A stretch of 20,072 bases of DNA from a virus. Positions 539 through 9,841 of the stretch are shown here, piece by piece. The translations under genes and the position numbers were made by a program. The notes under the pieces were generated by a model, which made no database searches, was not told the DNA's origin, and saw only the letters and a list, made by a program, of their open reading frames with translations. Position 1 is the stretch's first letter. The number at the start of each line of letters is the position of its first letter. The stretch is taken from the IMG/VR virus record IMGVR_UViG_3300009002_000068, positions 1 to 20,072 of that record, one strand, 5' to 3'.

Positions 539-850
539 ATGAAATCTTTTATACAGTTTAATGAGTCAGCAAGTATCAAATGGAAGAAAGTTCCAGATGG
601 ATATGGTGCAGGCAACAAGAAAGTATTCAAACACGTTTCCCCAGATGGTAAGTATGAGATCCGTCTATCTGGTATGGATTCTATGAGAAAGAACAAAGAT
701 GGCAGTCAGAAAGTAATGCCTACATTGTTCGATAATACTAAAGTAGGAGGCGATAAGCCTCGGCATCCAGTTACGGCATATAAAAATGTTGGCGTGGCTA
801 AGAAAGAAGCCCAGCGATGGCACGATGAGCACTATAATGAAAAAATTTAA
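539..850 (+). CDS. Small basic phage protein, possible internal head protein
   Basis: A 103-residue hypothetical protein starting at ATG 539, four bases after the preceding stop. It is rich in Lys/Arg and ends in a helical K/H/E segment. Its N-terminus, MKSFIQFNES, has the pattern Met-Lys-x-aromatic-x-x-Phe followed by Glu. This resembles the short peptide that targets T4 internal proteins into the prohead, although the Glu is one residue early and F-N-E is not a good L/I-x-E cleavage site. The gene overlaps the next one by 14 bases (ATG at 837), which suggests translational coupling. No enzymatic motif is visible. A role as a packaged DNA-binding protein is inference only. Confidence 0.7.
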   Translation: MKSFIQFNESASIKWKKVPDGYGAGNKKVFKHVSPDGKYEIRLSGMDSMRKNKDGSQKVMPTLFDNTKVGGDKPRHPVTAYKNVGVAKKEAQRWHDEHYNEKI

Positions 851-2060
851 TTCATTCTTAATTGAACAAAAAAATACACATATGACGCATCTTGAGGATG
901 CCGTACTTTATGGGGGTGTGAAAGGTGCAAGACAAGCTATCAATCTTCTACGCAGCATGCGTGATATGCTTTCGGGCAGTTCTTCTCGTGGTGTTTCTAC
1001 TACTGTTAAGTGGGATGGCGCTCCTGCTATTTTTGCTGGACAAGATCCTCGTGACGGCAAGTTCTTTGTGGCAAAAAAGGGAGTCTTTAATAAAAACCCT
1101 AAAATCTACAAGAGCGCTGAAGAGGTAGATGAAGACACTAGCGGTGACTTGGCAGTTAAACTGAAGCTCGCTCTGAAACATTTACCCGACCTTGGAATCA
1201 CTGGTGTGTTACAGGGTGACTTTCTATTCAGTAAAAGCGACTTAAAGAACGAAACAATAGACGGTGAAAAGGTTACAACATTCCACCCAAACACAATTGT
1301 ATACTCTGTTCCTAGTAAATCAGAAATGGGTAATGCAATCCGATCAGCTAAGATTGGTATTGTTTGGCATACTGTATACAGTGGCTCGTCATTTGAGACA
1401 ATGAAAGCATCATTCGGTCAGAAGATATCTGAAAAGCTAAGACCATCTAAAGACGTTTGGTATGTTGACCCTGAGTTCACAGATGTATCTGGTAAAGCTA
1501 CATTCACAGACAAAGAAAATAAAGCAGTAACCAAGTATATTAGTGATGCAGGCAAGGTGTTTAGCAAACTAGATTCCAAGACTATGAATGCGATCTCCGA
1601 GAACCCAGAGTTGATTCGTCAGATTACAGTACACTTCAACACTAAGGTAAGAGCAGGACAAAAGGTTACAAACGTTAAGTCTCATGTGAAGGATCTTGTC
1701 AACCACATTACTGGCTTCTATGCTAAGGAAGCTGATAAGCGCAAGACACCAAAGGGTAAGAAAGTCCAGACCGATAGGCGTGACGAGATACTAAAGTTCT
1801 TTTCTAATGCTAATGTTAAGAACCTTGAAAATATCTTCTTGCTGATGAATGCGCTAATCGATGCTAAAGAAATGATTATAAATAAAATGGATCAGGCAAG
1901 TAACATTGATACATTACTCAGAACCAAAGATGGATTCCAAGTAACTGCTCCAGAAGGTTATGTTGCTATCGACAATGATGGCAGTGCGCTGAAGCTAGTG
2001 AATAGAATGCAGTTCAGTCATGCTAACTTCTCTGACAACTACATTAAAGGTTGGAGTTAA
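837..2060 (+). CDS. Ligase/nucleotidyltransferase-like phage protein with capsid-targeting-like N-terminus
   Basis: I chose ATG 837 (407 residues) because the product then begins MKKFNSFLIEQ. This matches the T4 internal-protein targeting pattern M-K-x-[YF]-x-x-F-[IL]-x-E. Upstream in-frame starts would lie wholly inside the preceding gene. Motifs of the covalent nucleotidyltransferase (ligase) superfamily are visible in order: motif I K58-W-D-G61, a motif III-like GVLQGDFLF around 123-131, motif IV E373-G-Y-V-A, and motif V-like L-K386-L. About 240 mostly helical residues separate motifs III and IV, far more than in T4 RNA ligase 1. I recall this protein from marine T4-like phages as a domain of unknown function (possibly DUF6267). 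Ligase chemistry and head packaging are both inference. Confidence 0.8.
   Translation: MKKFNSFLIEQKNTHMTHLEDAVLYGGVKGARQAINLLRSMRDMLSGSSSRGVSTTVKWDGAPAIFAGQDPRDGKFFVAKKGVFNKNPKIYKSAEEVDEDTSGDLAVKLKLALKHLPDLGITGVLQGDFLFSKSDLKNETIDGEKVTTFHPNTIVYSVPSKSEMGNAIRSAKIGIVWHTVYSGSSFETMKASFGQKISEKLRPSKDVWYVDPEFTDVSGKATFTDKENKAVTKYISDAGKVFSKLDSKTMNAISENPELIRQITVHFNTKVRAGQKVTNVKSHVKDLVNHITGFYAKEADKRKTPKGKKVQTDRRDEILKFFSNANVKNLENIFLLMNALIDAKEMIINKMDQASNIDTLLRTKDGFQVTAPEGYVAIDNDGSALKLVNRMQFSHANFSDNYIKGWS
1877..1884 (+). promoter_or_regulatory. Internal TATAAATA motif, probably incidental
   Basis: An exact T4 late-promoter octamer lies inside the ligase-like gene, about 280 bases upstream of the next gene start. 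A second copy at 2067, in true intergenic sequence, is the better promoter candidate. This one may be chance in AT-rich coding DNA. Confidence 0.2.
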
Positions 2061-2163: not shown

Positions 2164-4302
2164 ATGTCGAAAGTAGTATTCACATTCGGAAGGATGAATC
2201 CGCCAACTATCGGTCACCAAAAGCTGGTTGACAAGGTTGAGGCGATTGCTAAGAAAGAAAAAGCGCCCGCAAGGATTTATCTTTCACACACCCAGAATAA
2301 TAAGAAAGATCCTCTCAACTATGCTGAGAAGATTAGTTTCGCCCGCAAAGCATTCGGTAAAACAGCATTCCAATCAAAGTCTAAGACAATCTTCCAGATA
2401 ATGGCTGAATTGGATAAAGAGTTTGATGAAGTCATCATGGTTGTTGGATCTGATCGAGTTACCGAATTCAATGGTCTGCTCCAGAAGTATAATGGTAAGA
2501 ACTACGACTTCGACTCAATCAAAGTAGTCTCTGCTGGCGCACGTGATCCTGACGCAACTGGCGTTGAAGGAATGTCTGCATCTAAGCTAAGAGCAATTGC
2601 AGTTGAGGGCGACTTCGATACATTCAAGTCTGGTCTAGCAAAGAAATTAAGTGATCGTGATGCTAAAGATATCTATGACACTATCCGCTCTGTACTTACA
2701 GAAGACATGGACGAAGATAGAAAGCCATTAAGTATCTCTCAGCGTAAAGCTATTGGTCGTAGAATGAAGCGTCTTGCTCCAAAGATGCAGCGTCTTAAGA
2801 AGATCAAAGCCAAGAAGATGGCTAACACTGATGTGATTAAGAAGCGTGCCAACAAGGCTGCTATCGCTGTTATCCGCAAGAAAGTTGCGGGTGATCGTGG
2901 TAAGAACTATGCTAGTCTAGCGCCTACAGATAAGATCCAAGTCGACAAGCTAGTACAGAAGAAGTCATCACTCATTCCTAAAATTGCCAAGAAGCTATTA
3001 CCTAAAATCCGTAAAGCTGAGATCGAAAGATTGAAGAAAGCTCGTGGCGGTGTCAAGGAAGAGTTAGATTATGATGCGTTGTTTGAAGCTGTTGCTCAAG
3101 ACAAAGACATCAAAGACCGCGAAGGAACACAGCCAAAGAAATATCATAGTGGATTGTCTAAGTCTACCAAAGCAAAGCGTGACGCAGAATTCAAGAAAGG
3201 CGCTGAGAAAGATTCAGACGACCCGACAGCATATCCAGATAAGCATGCTGGCGATACTGGCGCTAAGACTAAACTCTCCAAACACACTAAGAAGTATCGT
3301 GATATGTTTGGTGAGGGTGAAGTTGACTCTGCTAAAGAAAAGATAGACAGAGAAAAGGCTTCTGATAAGAAAAAACATGACCGTATGTTGGATCGTGCCC
3401 GCACTTCAGACACTAAAGCTAAGAACCAAGAAGAATCTTTTGAGATCACCGAAGACTCAGCCACTGCGCTAAAGAAAAAGTCTGAGAAGTCTGGCATATC
3501 TCTTGGTATCCTGAAGAAAGTTTATAATCGTGGTATGGCTGCGTGGAAGACTGGACATCGTCCAGGAGCAAACCAACAGCAATGGGCATATGCTCGTGTA
3601 AACTCTTTCATTACTGGTGGTAAGACAAGAACTACTGGCGATGCTGACTTGTGGAAACAACACAAGGGTAATGTGAGCGAGTCTGTTGAGATGTTGGACG
3701 AGGTTCCTACGGGACAGCTGATCGCCAAGCTGAAGTCTAAGACTATCTCAAAGAATAAGTATCAAGCCGCATTGAGTGTTCTGAAGCAGGTTGTAGACCG
3801 CAAGAAGAAAGAAGCTGGTAAAGACCCCATGAAGCACGGTGTTGTTTATTATGCTGGTGTTGTGGCGCGACAATATAATGGTGTTAATCCGCGTGTTCTT
3901 GCGAATATGTATACAGACCTTGAAGAAGCTGCTGGTGAGTTTGGTACTGATGCACTGACCAAGAAGTATAAGAAAGACACTCCGTGTCAAGAAGATTGCG
4001 CTGGCATGTATGAAGATTTAGTGGTTGAAGCTGCTGAGTATAAAGGAAGAAAGGTTGAGTTGAACAATCCTTTCAGACTACCGTCAGGATCGAAAAAGAA
4101 ATTTGGCGTGTATGTTAAGAATGACAAAGGTAATGTGATTAAGGTTACGTTTGGTGATCCAAATATGGAAATCAAACGAGACGACCCGAAACGTAGAGCA
4201 GCATTCAGATCAAGACACGATTGCGAAAACAAAAAAGACAAAACAACAGCTGGGTATTGGTCATGTTACCAATGGCGTGCTGGCGAAAAAGTTGATAACT
4301 AA
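2164..4302 (+). CDS. HIGH-motif nucleotidyltransferase fused to a string of phage head-type domains
   Basis: A 712-residue modular protein. Residues 1-180 form a cytidylyltransferase/NMNAT-like domain: the N-terminal strand VVFTFGR, T15-I-G-H18 as the (H/T)xGH nucleotide-binding motif, and S138-A-S-K-L-R143 as the C-terminal signature. The substrate is unknown. Then come a very basic helical segment (about 186-296), a Gly/Lys-rich domain ending DMFGE (about 321-384), a domain with RGMAAWKTGHRPG and RVNSFITGGK (about 433-502), a helical segment (514-588) and a C-terminal domain (626-712). I recall these as phage domains of unknown function (possibly DUF5872, DUF5824 and DUF6321, from memory). 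Sequences of the form L/I-x-E lie at the borders: LTE 178-180, LFE 306-308, ITE 428-430, LDE 511-513 and LEE 586-588. They resemble prohead-protease sites. It is preceded by the late promoter at 2067 and followed by a related modular gene. Confidence 0.85.
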   Translation: MSKVVFTFGRMNPPTIGHQKLVDKVEAIAKKEKAPARIYLSHTQNNKKDPLNYAEKISFARKAFGKTAFQSKSKTIFQIMAELDKEFDEVIMVVGSDRVTEFNGLLQKYNGKNYDFDSIKVVSAGARDPDATGVEGMSASKLRAIAVEGDFDTFKSGLAKKLSDRDAKDIYDTIRSVLTEDMDEDRKPLSISQRKAIGRRMKRLAPKMQRLKKIKAKKMANTDVIKKRANKAAIAVIRKKVAGDRGKNYASLAPTDKIQVDKLVQKKSSLIPKIAKKLLPKIRKAEIERLKKARGGVKEELDYDALFEAVAQDKDIKDREGTQPKKYHSGLSKSTKAKRDAEFKKGAEKDSDDPTAYPDKHAGDTGAKTKLSKHTKKYRDMFGEGEVDSAKEKIDREKASDKKKHDRMLDRARTSDTKAKNQEESFEITEDSATALKKKSEKSGISLGILKKVYNRGMAAWKTGHRPGANQQQWAYARVNSFITGGKTRTTGDADLWKQHKGNVSESVEMLDEVPTGQLIAKLKSKTISKNKYQAALSVLKQVVDRKKKEAGKDPMKHGVVYYAGVVARQYNGVNPRVLANMYTDLEEAAGEFGTDALTKKYKKDTPCQEDCAGMYEDLVVEAAEYKGRKVELNNPFRLPSGSKKKFGVYVKNDKGNVIKVTFGDPNMEIKRDDPKRRAAFRSRHDCENKKDKTTAGYWSCYQWRAGEKVDN

Positions 4303-4314
4303 GGAATCTAAGAA

Positions 4315-7107
4315 ATGAACCTAGCGAACACAATAAAAGTAATGCAGCTCAGACAGCTTCAGGAAGCAGAAGAAGCTGCTAAGTATCCGCACGATATGTA
4401 TGATCCAGAAACTGGCGAGAAAGAAGTTGCTAATAGCGAAGCAGAGCACAAAGCCCTTGCTGCTAAAGGCTACACTCACGAGAAGCCTGAAGATGATCTT
4501 AATGAATCATTCGAAGAAGCAATGGTCGATCTTGAAGAAGCAAGGATCAAAGCGTCTGACTATGAAGCTACTTCTGAGAAATCAAAGTTTGGCGGACATA
4601 GAGCTAAGGTCGTACATAAGACTAAGGGGCATACGATGTGGCTAGGTGCTGCGGGATTTAAGACACCTAAAGCTGCTAAAGCTGCTGCTGATGCGTATCT
4701 TTCAGGATATGCAATAGGTAGTGAGAAAGGTGCTCAGAGAATGCTGGATGCACATATTAGGAATAACAAAAAGAATTTAGTTGATCCTAGTGTTTTAGAT
4801 GAAGCTGTTGCTCTTTCTGAAGAGATTCGATTTAAAGCTGGTGATATGCCTAATAGCGATCTACTCAATGCCATAGAAAAATTGAAAGGTCTAAAAGCAA
4901 AGGCTGAGGGCGAAAAGAAAAAGTTCAGTGATCCCACTTTAATCGATTCAGTTGAACAACTGATCATTGGGTTAGAAATGGGAGTTAAGGCTGGCGAAAA
5001 GGCAGAAAAACAGGCATCTAAATTTATCGCACAAGCTGCTTCTGTTATGAATAAAGCATTTGCTCTTGCAAAAAGAAAGCAGCATTTGTTGAACTCTTTT
5101 GAAGCAGAAGGTGATCAACTTGACGAAGCCTTTAATATTGAAAAAGGCACTAATGTTAAAATGAAAGCTGGTAGTGATAAAGATCTATATGGTACAGTGA
5201 TCAAACAAGTTAAAGTGAACGGTAAGCCTGCAGTAACAGTTCAATGGAAAAATGGTGTAAAGGGTAATTTTAGAATGGACCAATTTGCAGCTGTAAGTAT
5301 GGATAGAAAAGCAGACTATCAAGTTAAAGATGACGGTGTTCGTTTTGAACAGAAAGAGTCTGTTGAACTTGACGAAGCATACCAACAGTTCACAGATAAG
5401 ACTCCTAATTGGGGTGAAGATCAAGCAATAACATTCGGTCGTAAGAAAGGTTATAAAGAAGTTGCTGTAATGAGCGATAACAATAGTAAACACCCAATGG
5501 TACTATTTGCTCTAGATTCTGGTGATAAGAATTACATCAAAGGTTCTAATGTAAAGTCTGGTGAAACTGTATTCAGATATGCCACAAAGATTAGCATTGC
5601 TGGTGACATCTTTCCACTTGTGAAAGTTAATATCGCCAAAGGAATCTACTATAATCTAACTCAAGAGTCTTCAGAGGGTACTATTGAAGATGCTAAGTTC
5701 GAGAATAAAGGCGTTAAGCTAAAGTTCTTCCGTTCTCTTGAAGGCGCGATCAAAGAGTCTGTTGAATTAGATGAAGCTAAATTTGGCGATAACGATCTTG
5801 TTCATATTGCTAAAGCAAATGTGCGTGGAAATAATAATCCAAAGACTGATAAAATTGTTGGCTATAGTAAAGCACCTAAAAATCCAAACAAGTTTCCTGA
5901 TCCAAAATCGGGCGCAAACTCTATAATGCGTATCGCTGATGCGAAGAAAAAAGGATTTAAGATCGAAAGTGCAGAACTCAATGAAGATTACTTCATAGTT
6001 CAATACTACGATAAGAAAGGTAAAGCCGACACAACTAAGTTCTCTAAGTTTGATGATGCATCAAAAGCTAAGAAGTATCTTGATCGTGCAAATAAAACAA
6101 GCAAAGAGGGTGAATATAAGATGTTAAAAGTTAAAGGTGCAATGGAAGGTCTTGAAGAAGCAAACGTCTTCGGAACGCAAGACAATTATGGTTCTAGTGA
6201 CTCATTGCTTGCTGCTGTAAACGCTGTTGTTTCTGGACAAGCTGAAACTGTTGAAACAACAGTTGAAGATCAGAACGAAATCATCGAGAATGGCTCAGAT
6301 GAAATTGTTGAGTCGGCTGATCTTGAAGAAGCATTCGCTAGTTTTTCTGTACCAATCCCTGCGCAAACACTAAGCGGTAAGAAGATTGGTGGTGGTAAAA
6401 CTCCTATTGTCGTGAAAGCTAGAACAGCAAGAGAAGCAATCCAAAAAGCTGCTAAGCAATTAGGTGTTGATTTCAAAATGCTGAAGACTGGCAAGGTGAT
6501 GAAAGAAGATAACACTAATGACGACTCTGATGACGGTGAAGGTCTTGATAAAGTCCAACCTAAAGCTGTGAAGAAGAAGTTTAAGGATCGTAAAGACCAA
6601 GACATCGACAACGATGGTGATGTAGACGATTCAGACAAGTTCTTACACAAGAAGCGCAAGGCAATTTCTAAGGCTATTTCTAAAGATGAGTCTAAAGAAG
6701 AAGATAAGAAAGATGTTAAGTCTGGTAAGAAAGAAAAGGTTGACATTAAACCTAAACTAGATGAAGCTGCCTTCAAGAGCAAGTATGGCTCGCGTTGGGA
6801 AGCTGTAATGGAAGCAACTATCAAACGTTTGGTAGAGCAACAAGAGCTTAATGAAAAGTTCACATTACTGAAAGATAAAGATATCGCTCCATTAGTATTG
6901 GCATTAAAGGATAACATCTCTGTAGAGTTGAAAGATCCTAAAAATAACAACTTGCTTGTTACAATGCAGACAACTGATGATGGTGTTCAGGTTAAGTATA
7001 AGACAGGTCGCAATACCAAAGTCGGTACTGAGAGAAGTCCTATGCCTGCCATTAGGAGCGCAGTTAAGTTCTTGAAAGCTAAAGAGTTGGCGTTCAGAGA
7101 ACTATAA
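4315..7107 (+). CDS. 930-residue polyprotein-like head protein with repeated LDEA/LEEA linkers
   Basis: A long hydrophilic protein of many short domains with no membrane segment. At least 12 L-x-E tripeptides lie in acidic linkers: after residues 17, 64, 75, 163, 271, 354, 487, 557, 615, 672, 817 and 847. Eight are followed by Ala (usually LDEA or LEEA), and KESVELDEA occurs twice identically (347-355 and 480-488). The T4 prohead protease gp21 cuts after L/I-x-E, so this could be a precursor cut into pieces of about 10-145 residues. Pieces of note are a basic domain with GHRAKVVHK (76-163), SH3-like beta domains (272-354 and 355-487) and an Asp-rich EF-hand-like loop at 763-774. The N-terminus is helical and carries an early LQE site. 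The start at ATG 4315 follows an AAGGAA ribosome site, 12 bases after the previous gene. Scaffold or internal head protein is the likely role; processing is inference. Confidence 0.85.
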   Translation: MNLANTIKVMQLRQLQEAEEAAKYPHDMYDPETGEKEVANSEAEHKALAAKGYTHEKPEDDLNESFEEAMVDLEEARIKASDYEATSEKSKFGGHRAKVVHKTKGHTMWLGAAGFKTPKAAKAAADAYLSGYAIGSEKGAQRMLDAHIRNNKKNLVDPSVLDEAVALSEEIRFKAGDMPNSDLLNAIEKLKGLKAKAEGEKKKFSDPTLIDSVEQLIIGLEMGVKAGEKAEKQASKFIAQAASVMNKAFALAKRKQHLLNSFEAEGDQLDEAFNIEKGTNVKMKAGSDKDLYGTVIKQVKVNGKPAVTVQWKNGVKGNFRMDQFAAVSMDRKADYQVKDDGVRFEQKESVELDEAYQQFTDKTPNWGEDQAITFGRKKGYKEVAVMSDNNSKHPMVLFALDSGDKNYIKGSNVKSGETVFRYATKISIAGDIFPLVKVNIAKGIYYNLTQESSEGTIEDAKFENKGVKLKFFRSLEGAIKESVELDEAKFGDNDLVHIAKANVRGNNNPKTDKIVGYSKAPKNPNKFPDPKSGANSIMRIADAKKKGFKIESAELNEDYFIVQYYDKKGKADTTKFSKFDDASKAKKYLDRANKTSKEGEYKMLKVKGAMEGLEEANVFGTQDNYGSSDSLLAAVNAVVSGQAETVETTVEDQNEIIENGSDEIVESADLEEAFASFSVPIPAQTLSGKKIGGGKTPIVVKARTAREAIQKAAKQLGVDFKMLKTGKVMKEDNTNDDSDDGEGLDKVQPKAVKKKFKDRKDQDIDNDGDVDDSDKFLHKKRKAISKAISKDESKEEDKKDVKSGKKEKVDIKPKLDEAAFKSKYGSRWEAVMEATIKRLVEQQELNEKFTLLKDKDIAPLVLALKDNISVELKDPKNNNLLVTMQTTDDGVQVKYKTGRNTKVGTERSPMPAIRSAVKFLKAKELAFREL
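5353..5379 (+). repeat. Linker repeat KESVELDEA, copy 1
   Basis: Encodes residues 347-355 of the polyprotein-like gene. The peptide is identical to copy 2 at 5752. The first 14 bases match exactly, while the Leu and Asp codons after them differ, so the peptide rather than the DNA appears to be conserved. A related ESVEMLDEV occurs in the upstream gene at residues 506-514. Confidence 0.8.
5752..5778 (+). repeat. Linker repeat KESVELDEA, copy 2
   Basis: Encodes residues 480-488 of the same protein, identical in amino acids to copy 1 at 5353 but with synonymous changes in its second half. It separates a beta-rich domain (355-487) from the following basic segment. Confidence 0.8.
6601..6636 (+). 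other. EF-hand/dockerin-like calcium loop in the polyprotein
   Basis: Residues 763-774 read DIDNDGDVDDSD. Acidic residues occupy loop positions 1, 3, 5, 9 and 12, with Gly at 6, as in canonical EF-hand and dockerin calcium loops. Basic helical sequence flanks it on both sides. Calcium binding is inferred from the motif alone. Confidence 0.6.
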
Positions 7108-8418: not shown

Positions 8419-8975
8419 TGGGCAAGATTACAGATTTACTCCTCGCGTACCAGTTCATCAAAAGGCTTACAACACCTTTTGAAAAGACTGATGCATTTAA
8501 GTTGGGGATTATAGACAAGAGCGGCAAGAAGATAAAGTCGCCTGAGACTACTGAAGAGAATAATGCTTATGGGTATTATGATCGGATGGTCTTCAATCTC
8601 AAAAAACTGCTTGAGAAAATTCCAGGAGGCAAAACTAAGTTTGCTTCCTATGCTGCTGCTTTGTTTCTCATTAAAGAAAGCCACACACAAACTGAATTCT
8701 CCGAAGAAGAAATGGTACAAGGGTTATACGAAGCTATGGATAAGATAGAAGAAAGCACAACAGAGCAAAAGGACTTCAATACACTATTCGAAGATGTTGC
8801 TGCCAATGCTACTGGTGCAGCTGTTGCTGGTACTGGTAATGATGTTGCTGACTTTAAAAAGCCAGACGCTCGCAAGAAAGACATGAAAGCGTTTTTGAAA
8901 CGTTATCTTGAACAGAAACAAAAGCGTGTTAAGATTAAAGAACGCAAAGACTTCATGAAGAAATTTGGACTATGA
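8418..8975 (+). CDS. Conserved phage virion-associated protein, function unknown
   Basis: A 185-residue protein. The N-terminal region carries TPFEKTDAFKLGIIDKSGK, then a helical part with LKKLLEKIPGGKTKFASYAAAL. The middle (about 110-150) is acidic and Ala/Gly-rich and probably flexible. The C-terminus is strongly basic, with FLKRYLEQKQKRVKIKERKDF and a final MKKFGL. I recall similar proteins across marine myoviruses, usually labelled hypothetical or structural. A flexible linker joined to a basic tail would suit DNA or scaffold contact inside the head, but that is inference. It is coupled to both neighbours: TAATG with the gene before and ATGA with the gene after. Confidence 0.75.
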   Translation: MGKITDLLLAYQFIKRLTTPFEKTDAFKLGIIDKSGKKIKSPETTEENNAYGYYDRMVFNLKKLLEKIPGGKTKFASYAAALFLIKESHTQTEFSEEEMVQGLYEAMDKIEESTTEQKDFNTLFEDVAANATGAAVAGTGNDVADFKKPDARKKDMKAFLKRYLEQKQKRVKIKERKDFMKKFGL

Positions 8976-9841
8976 TAACTCAATCTGATTTAGATGCCGT
9001 TGAAAAATATGCCGATAGAATCTTCGCTAAAGTGGGGATTGATGTTGAGTTCACTCGACATTTTCTAGATCGTGCCAATGATGCTCGCAATAAAAAGGAT
9101 ATCAGTTCAGCCGAACTAATACGTCTATTCAAGAAAACATTTAAGAAACATGGCAAAGCTATACCAAAACTTGGTCCAGACGCTGAAGCTGTATTGAAAG
9201 ATATGCGAACGGACATCAACGTGCCTTTCGTACTGAACCTACGAAGAGGAGAGTTAGAGTTGGTGGCTAAGACAGTAATGCGTAAAAAGAATTTCAAGAC
9301 CCCTGATCCTGAGTTGGCTGTTGAGATGGCAAAGAATAACACTCCCGCTAAAGCTGGAAAGGACTTCAAGAAACTGTTCGAGACTAAAGCTCCAGTTCGA
9401 GGCACTCGCCCAACATCAGTATTGGCCAAGACTAGAGAAACATTAAATAAAGTCAATGAATTAAAATTCACTATACCGAATAAAGGCGATATTCCTCGCA
9501 ACAAGATGCCTCAGATCGAATCTGAAGATTACAAAGCCTATCTCCAGCATATGAAAAGAAAGGGTATAGTTGGAAAGGAAATCAAAGTTGACCCGAAGAA
9601 GCTAAAGGCAATACAATCAGAGTTCTCTGACAAGGGTGTTGTTATTTCCATCAGGAAGAATGACGACAAACCTATCCTCATCAGCAACGATAAATATGTG
9701 ATTGATGGTAATCATCGATGGTTGGCTGCTATAGCTACACGAAAAGATGCGATTAATGCGATACAATTTAACGCAAGCAAAGATCAAGTGTTAAGGGCAA
9801 CACTAGCATTCCCTAAAGTGGTATTTAAACAGCACGGATAA
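8972..9841 (+). CDS. Two-domain phage protein with ParB/sulfiredoxin-like C-terminus
   Basis: A 289-residue protein that starts in an ATGA overlap with the previous gene. Residues about 20-115 form a compact domain: FTRHFLDRANDARNKKDIS, then LIRLFKKTFKKHG, then INVPFVLN and a basic end KTVMRKKNFKTPDP. I recall this module in marine T4-like phages, and its layout is reminiscent of RelE/BrnT-like toxin folds, though that is only a resemblance. A lysine-rich linker follows. Residues about 200-270 look like a ParB/Srx domain, with a strand preceding V-I-D245-G-N-H-R249-W, the family's GxHR nucleotide-binding signature. ParB-like domains bind CTP or ATP and may act as nucleases or kinases. Which activity applies here, if any, is unknown. 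Confidence 0.75.
   Translation: MITQSDLDAVEKYADRIFAKVGIDVEFTRHFLDRANDARNKKDISSAELIRLFKKTFKKHGKAIPKLGPDAEAVLKDMRTDINVPFVLNLRRGELELVAKTVMRKKNFKTPDPELAVEMAKNNTPAKAGKDFKKLFETKAPVRGTRPTSVLAKTRETLNKVNELKFTIPNKGDIPRNKMPQIESEDYKAYLQHMKRKGIVGKEIKVDPKKLKAIQSEFSDKGVVISIRKNDDKPILISNDKYVIDGNHRWLAAIATRKDAINAIQFNASKDQVLRATLAFPKVVFKQHG

Follow-up and report, generated by a model that had tools for sequence, protein, structure and literature searches.

Why would a single viral protein carry a dozen copies of what looks like the recognition site of a phage prohead protease? The question is raised by a 930-amino-acid open reading frame (ORF) in IMG/VR virus record IMGVR_UViG_3300009002_000068, of which we analysed all 20,072 bases (the window), a 20-kb fragment without head genes. 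A sequence-only reading had taken the ORF, at positions 4315–7107, for a head polyprotein cut at 12 or more sites by a protease resembling T4 gp21; its coordinates and length were correct, and the checks that we ran support the interpretation, with cleavage itself deduced. We consider it probable, at roughly two chances in three, that the ORF encodes a cassette-built polyprotein of small internal head proteins, processed by the prohead protease of a marine T4-like myovirus (Kyanoviridae-like). Phage internal proteins are usually described as separate genes.

Protease-like sites and module joints

T4 gp21 cleaves after L/I-X-E (PMC9026906). We found this motif 17 times in the 930-amino-acid ORF compared with 8.8 expected from shuffles (P = 0.004), and its narrower forms L[DEN]E[ASG] and L[DE]EA nine and eight times (0.26 and 0.09 expected; at most two L[DE]EA in 5000 shuffles). 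The ~90-fold enrichment of L[DE]EA agrees with the earlier proposal that the L-D/E-E-A context is the stronger signal. Among all window ORFs this one was the sole outlier in site number (9 vs. 0.37), and the sole outlier in G001, a 92%-identical relative of 133 kb, was its 955-amino-acid ortholog (8 vs. 0.46). With a strong site defined as [LI][DEN]E, there are 11 strong cuts, after residues 64, 75, 163, 271, 354, 487, 557, 615, 672, 817 and 847. The leader site LQE↓A after residue 17 (↓ marks the presumed cut) brings the total to 12, all of which follow the L/I-x-E rule of gp21-type (Peptidase_S77) substrates.

The description of acidic linkers separating mostly basic segments held for both parts: the last ten residues ahead of each site are acidic, and nine of the 11 inter-site bodies are net positive, the acidic ones being the first body and that of residues 616–672. 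The pieces between sites are not evenly spaced, as had been supposed, and span 11 to 145 amino acids. The two copies of KESVELDEA do differ in synonymous codons, though only for Leu, Asp and Ala; their first 15 nucleotides are identical, which weakens the argument that the peptide is under selection. Across loci, linker DNA showed 3.0 differences per 21 nucleotides vs. 5.1 predicted from codon usage. This excess likeness points to a contribution of shared descent and leaves the codon argument weak. The ORF as a whole is under purifying selection, with a ratio of nonsynonymous to synonymous substitution rates (dN/dS) of 0.13 against G001. A Pfam scan of the ORF gave no domain above cut-off and hence none of the recognised conflict domains of polyvalent proteins.

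Comparison of four homologues (the 930-amino-acid ORF, G001, L003 and L008) showed modules in common but in different sets and orders, and the expectation that linkers would be kept while domains are shuffled was borne out. Cassette 4, for example, is inserted in the window ORF between QLDE↓ and ↓AYQQ, where G001 runs QLDE↓AYQQ unbroken. An NPYKGK cassette lies in the polyprotein in G001 and in the nucleotidyltransferase ORF in L003 and L008, and an MGxFPQ cassette lies in the polyprotein in L003 and in the nucleotidyltransferase ORF in L008. In profile searches, LDE↓A stood directly before cassette 5 in all eight distinct matches, while the upstream neighbours differed. The 42 DNA-level breakpoints of gain, loss or exchange among the four homologues lay close to strong sites, at a median distance of 4.3 residues (23 for random placement), and 67% were within 6 residues of a site vs. 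15% at random (P < 5e-5). The effect was weaker but clear in a wider set of 82 representatives (median 15 vs. 29), in which the largest single peak of homologous-stretch ends lay immediately behind the E of a site (offset 0, 39 ends). On these comparisons, the unit of evolution is the cassette bounded by successive L-x-E↓A sites, which is gained, lost, duplicated and moved as such. Cassettes move within the polyprotein, to the nucleotidyltransferase ORF, to prohead-core proteins, or to a place of their own behind a start resembling a capsid-targeting sequence (CTS).

Two further arrangements were read in other linker ORFs. Residues 210–292 of L069 hold a near-exact cassette tandem, running twice from ↓ATAISYK to SVELDE↓ with each copy ending in NESVELDE; a BLAST self-search for internal repeats gave no output, although this tandem is readable by eye. 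The cassette protein of L018 (3142–4656) contains, directly after LIEE↓K, another CTS-like peptide, MKTFESLRGELTE↓A, as if the gene of a CTS-tagged internal protein had been fused in frame. Segment clustering was discarded since its family 'A' lumped lysine-rich segments, and the breakpoint and profile tests were used instead. An alignment of many short fragments put pieces in wrong positions and was likewise set aside.

AlphaFold modelling of residues 545–625 (module 7 with flanks) predicted a beta-beta-alpha-beta fold whose core blocks reach a predicted local distance difference test (pLDDT) score of ~90. Local residues 1–11 and 68–81 are disordered in this model. The first cut, which follows local residue 13, borders the fold; the second, which follows residue 71, lies in the disordered tail. 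The idea that sites fall in unstructured linkers between folded domains thus held for module 7, the full-length model being too poor for the rest. In the full-length model all strong sites have pLDDT < 50, as does 76% of the chain, and were for that reason not counted as support. A search with the module 7 fold gave no significant PDB match, and the best hit in a viral library had E 0.02, the hits being mostly small phage proteins.

The linker in other viruses and its link to head genes

We scanned 2.9 million viral contigs at the DNA level for the encoded peptide E-S-V-E-L-D-E-A, requiring no further homology; at least 118 stretches matched, compared with 12 when the peptide was scrambled. 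The 79 linker ORFs contained 265 sites vs. 40 in shuffles; as ~79 of these are present by construction, the fair figure is 186 vs. 40. Among the long linker ORFs, L049, with 1417 amino acids, is the clearest. T4-like markers were found at 63 of 78 linker loci (44 with DUF6267, nucleotidyltransferase, DUF7207 or gp61, 18 with the head cluster and 1 with both; 15 had none) and at 0 of 12 control loci. Wherever a head-cluster locus held both portal and protease, the linker ORF lay between the two (relatives in this position include L044, L057, L063, L072, L082, L115 and L121), an interval that in T4 is the slot of gp67/68. In L058, ESVELDE↓A and a cassette come after a prohead-core domain (phrog_1064 'prohead', E 1.4e-5). 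The chains of L063, L082, L115 and L121, of 422 to 607 amino acids, consist of variable cassettes flanked by conserved N- and C-terminal parts. Of the indirect evidence for entry of linker proteins into the prohead, such cassettes inside putative prohead-core proteins are the strongest.

The gp21-like protease anticipated by the earlier reading was found in relatives and not in the 20-kb window: Peptidase_S77 is encoded in G001 (E 3e-36), in G003 and in all six linker contigs of at least 96 kb. It was absent from nine control contigs, but these are shorter (13–56 kb). The G001 protease itself carries sites close to both ends, LTE↓AK on the N-terminal and DLEE↓AK on the C-terminal side, the G001 scaffold reads TDALDE↓ATV and the capsid protein LLGE↓AAP, and comparable presumed sites occur in seven further relatives. 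Of 24 hand-collected canonical sites, presumed rather than measured, 23 have L or I at P3 and 17 have A at P1'.

The neighbouring DUF6267 protein places the locus among the T4-like marine phages: it matches 377 phage records, mostly of cyanophages, and the best matches listed include Phage C48C1, Stenotrophomonas phage DLP_6, Melnitz and HTVC008M. P-HM2, S-CAM3 and HTVC008M share, with variation, the order primase-helicase, DUF6267, nucleotidyltransferase, variable genes, gp61 and ribonucleotide reductase. Many genes of this cluster begin M-K-x-F-x-x-[FL]..E, which resembles the T4 capsid-targeting start (for example MKKFSEIIE↓A in Melnitz and MITFKKYLEE↓K in C48C1). In T4, a ten-residue signal brings internal proteins into the head and is then removed by gp21 (PMC9026906). 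An M-K-x-F start was present in 20 of 59 linker ORFs vs. 65 of 586 other ORFs, and also in neighbours of the polyprotein in the window. Against isolate phages, a whole-protein search found only Methylophilales phage Melnitz, weakly, and module-wise tblastn returned nothing useful.

Some linker ORFs, such as L088 (4633–6316) and L071 (3367–5050), both with MKYIKLFEKFTKEYQ, have no marker genes nearby and possibly belong to a different phage group. A 181-kb linker contig of this kind has a weaker Peptidase_S77 match in a 582-amino-acid frame. The cultured cyanophage BUCT-ZZ01, which grows on the laboratory strain S. elongatus PCC 7942, encodes a 612-amino-acid linker-type protein (UTS51990; L188 3999–5837, ON615601) near its terminase gene and offers a practical test bed. 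This Synechococcus phage protein contains 8 sites compared with 1.9 expected, and it has cassettes in common with L049.

Cassettes and neighbouring genes

Features of the window in order along the polyprotein, followed by its upstream neighbours (↓, presumed cut).
Feature	Positions	Strand	Remarks
Cassette polyprotein ORF	4315..7107	+	930 aa; site counts; dN/dS 0.13 vs G001
Leader MNLANTIKVMQLRQLQE↓A, aa 1-17	4315..4365	+	motif M.L..TI[RK].M
Cassette 1, aa 18-75, YPHDMYDPETG..KGYTHEKPE	4366..4539	+	minor site LNE↓S at 64; end DLEE↓A
Cassette 2, aa 76-163	4540..4803	+	net +10; end VLDE↓A
Cassette 3, aa 164-271	4804..5127	+	helical; end QLDE↓A
Cassette 4, aa 272-354	5128..5376	+	end KESVELDE↓A; missing in G001; L008 neighbours differ
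Cassette 5, aa 355-487	5377..5775	+	end KESVELDE↓A
Cassette 6, aa 488-557	5776..5985	+	end ELNE↓D; absent in L008
Cassette 7, aa 558-615	5986..6159	+	predicted beta-beta-alpha-beta fold; end GLEE↓A
Cassette 8, aa 616-672	6160..6330	+	acidic; end DLEE↓A
Cassette 9, aa 673-730, FSVPIPAQT	6331..6504	+	near the C-terminal end; moved: second cassette in G001
Cassette 10, aa 731-817	6505..6765	+	dockerin/EF-hand-like loop DIDNDGDVDDSD; end KLDE↓A
Cassette 11, aa 818-847, KYGSRWEAVMEATIKRL	6766..6855	+	end ELNE↓K
Cassette 12, aa 848-930, C-terminal	6856..7104	+	absent in L008
Nucleotidyltransferase domain, then further cassettes	2164..4302	+	DUF5824 module after FEITE↓D; MLDE↓V; DLEE↓A
DUF6267 protein, CTS-like start MKKFNSFLIE↓Q	837..2060	+	likely true start 837; ORF opens 786
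Small protein, CTS-like start MKSFIQFNE↓S	539..850	+	–

The leader motif is common to the longest polyproteins (L003, L008, L013, L049, L068 and L116), and a regular expression for it matched essentially only those among 9974 ORFs; the leader is a possible head-targeting signal. Several cassettes recur elsewhere. Cassette 1 has 16 distinct relatives, starting separate CTS-like proteins in L092, L062 and L074 and lying internally in L116, while cassette 2, absent from G001, L003 and L008, sits right behind the CTS-like start MKNFKNFKTGLEE↓A in L111. Cassette 7 has relatives in L013, L018, L049 and C48C1, and the DUF5824 module of the nucleotidyltransferase ORF is a separate 90-amino-acid CTS-like protein in phage C48C1. 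The occurrence of the same modules as separate proteins behind CTS-like starts was counted in favour of packaged cargo.

Cassette 10 is the most widespread (48 distinct relatives) and matches phrog_22379 (E 3e-17). Its positions 6505–6714 encode D-x-D-x-D-G-D-x-D-x-S-D and then a basic helix-like stretch, resembling a dockerin/EF-hand calcium loop; Dockerin_1 matches the L057 linker protein (E 0.0014, below cut-off) and not the 930-amino-acid ORF. This loop, together with helix-turn-helix-like and RMF-like matches below cut-off in relatives, gives weak hints of module function.

DUF6267 proteins have a similar CTS-type start in G001, L003, L008, C48C1 and DLP_6, and this start may mark an injected enzyme. 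The window copy holds VKWDGAPAIF, a stretch that recalls the K-x-D-G motif found in nucleotidyltransferases of the ligase/capping type. Downstream of the polyprotein, positions 8972–9841 encode a protein whose C-terminal half is ParB-like (PHROG ParB-like and phrog_2859 matches), reminiscent of packaged polyvalent-protein domains, and whose N-terminal half recurs in other proteins (L013 and L014).

Competing explanations, precedents and meaning

The proposed pathway is that one chain is made and would be drawn into the prohead core by the leader or by core-binding linkers. The phage's gp21-type S77 serine protease would then cut after L-x-E, mostly at L-D/E-E↓A, in acidic unstructured linkers, a step suggested by the motif, the linkage and the T4 precedent. 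Since proteolysis is itself deduced, the number of products is likewise an estimate: about a dozen small, mostly basic proteins may be released, stay with the DNA and perhaps be ejected with it, by analogy with the T4 internal proteins.

Several observations weigh against this interpretation. The 930-amino-acid protein lacks the classical M-K-x-F start of T4 internal proteins, and because of this we describe it as working like internal proteins and not as one. As in related phages, the locus lies amid nucleotide-metabolism and replication genes and not in the head cluster; the ORF sits in the DUF6267/nucleotidyltransferase cluster, away from the portal-protease position of gp67/gp68-type genes. 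The linkage to a protease rests on relatives because the window record has none. D is frequent at P2 in the linkers and occurs there in only two of the 24 presumed canonical sites (E in eight). Certain junctions, such as that at residue 729, are distant from any strict site, and the full-length AlphaFold model was poor (mean pLDDT 38), probably because just four sequences were available. We found no virion proteome of this phage or a close relative.

The best-surviving alternative, which we regard as unlikely, is that the protein is a prohead-core substrate destroyed during maturation, its modules serving core assembly only and its pieces mostly leaving the head. In T4, processing of the core proteins gives several fragments, most of which leave the head (PMC9026906), and the precedent of gp22, gp67 and gp68 extends to several cuts per chain and to a gene slot in which some linker relatives lie, one of them with the phrog_1064 core domain. 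What speaks for retained cargo is that the modules here are conserved, mostly basic, folded-looking (with one confident predicted fold) and exchangeable, and that some recur as separate CTS-tagged proteins, more cargo-like than scaffold-like.

It is rather improbable that the protein is instead an uncut multidomain head protein injected whole, with linkers that are mere flexible joints and recombination points. The likeness of linker DNA beyond codon usage does fit recombination in the linker, and polyvalent proteins of 2–15 domains exist (PMC5512222). Like the presumed polyprotein, polyvalent proteins and the P1 Dar proteins (PMC5512222, PMC9024508) have many domains and shuffled architectures and are predicted or shown to be packaged and injected, and P1 DarB has a capsid signal (PMC9024508); unlike it, they undergo limited processing or processing by a built-in peptidase, and the accessible text of these sources describes no regular L-x-E↓A linkers. 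A flexible joint needs neither L at P3 nor E at P1, yet the joints retain the protease motif, with A or S at P1', even when modules change, and these genomes have the motif also in other proteins that are presumed substrates of the protease.

The position of the locus, between the DUF6267/nucleotidyltransferase and the gp61/ribonucleotide reductase genes and away from the head cluster, would suit a non-virion, cytoplasmic early or middle protein whose linkers serve another protease or none. We hold this to be very unlikely, as similar linker proteins lie between portal and protease in other phages and the window neighbours have T4-like capsid-targeting starts ending in L/I-x-E. Chance or composition in an E-rich chain has practically no probability left: although L-x-E is short, with 8.8 expected by shuffling, it was ruled out by the shuffles with their L[DE]EA excess, the proteome-wide comparison, the breakpoints that the sites predict and the linker scan, which found one phage group in two loci.

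A head polyprotein processed by the prohead protease agrees in parts with the T4-type internal head proteins. Like IPI-III and Alt (PMC9026906, PMC3012670), it would yield small, often basic head proteins by a gp21 cut after L/I-x-E, with diverse bodies behind a common signal, here seen as CTS-like starts on the window neighbours. Unlike them, each with its own gene and one N-terminal cut (Alt also has a C-terminal one), it places about a dozen modules in one ORF, with internal sites at which cassettes are exchanged. The proteases phiKZ gp175 and SPN3US gp245 (PMC5694885, PMC10052503) are related to gp21 and cut after Glu in many head proteins, including some propeptides cut several times; in the accessible text of these reports, multiple cuts remove propeptides, the motif is A-x-E or S/A/G-x-E, and many-module release from one chain is not described. 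What is already known (PMC9026906, PMC3012670, PMC5694885, PMC10052503) includes internal head proteins with their targeting sequence, and core proteins or propeptides that are cut at several sites. In our literature search, which did not cover subscription papers, we met no description of a head polyprotein in a phage and none of one ORF releasing many conserved modules exchanged at protease sites, and the polyprotein and cassette organisation appears new.

We tentatively extend this, at a little less than even odds, to a cargo system that would be general among marine T4-like phages. In such a system E-S-V-E-L-D-E↓A would be both protease site and recombination joint for an open-ended set of interchangeable cassettes for host takeover or DNA protection, which would be co-packaged in a fixed ratio, freed in the head and co-injected, and which would also be inserted into prohead-core proteins. 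A protease-cut head polyprotein of exchangeable cassettes would in itself be a cargo-loading strategy resembling the polyproteins of animal viruses, and it would explain a set of function-unassigned phage proteins that ordinary homology search sees only as fragments. It is also a ready test of site choice by prohead proteases, and its linker is a simple search key for many small proteins that are probably delivered into marine bacteria at infection.

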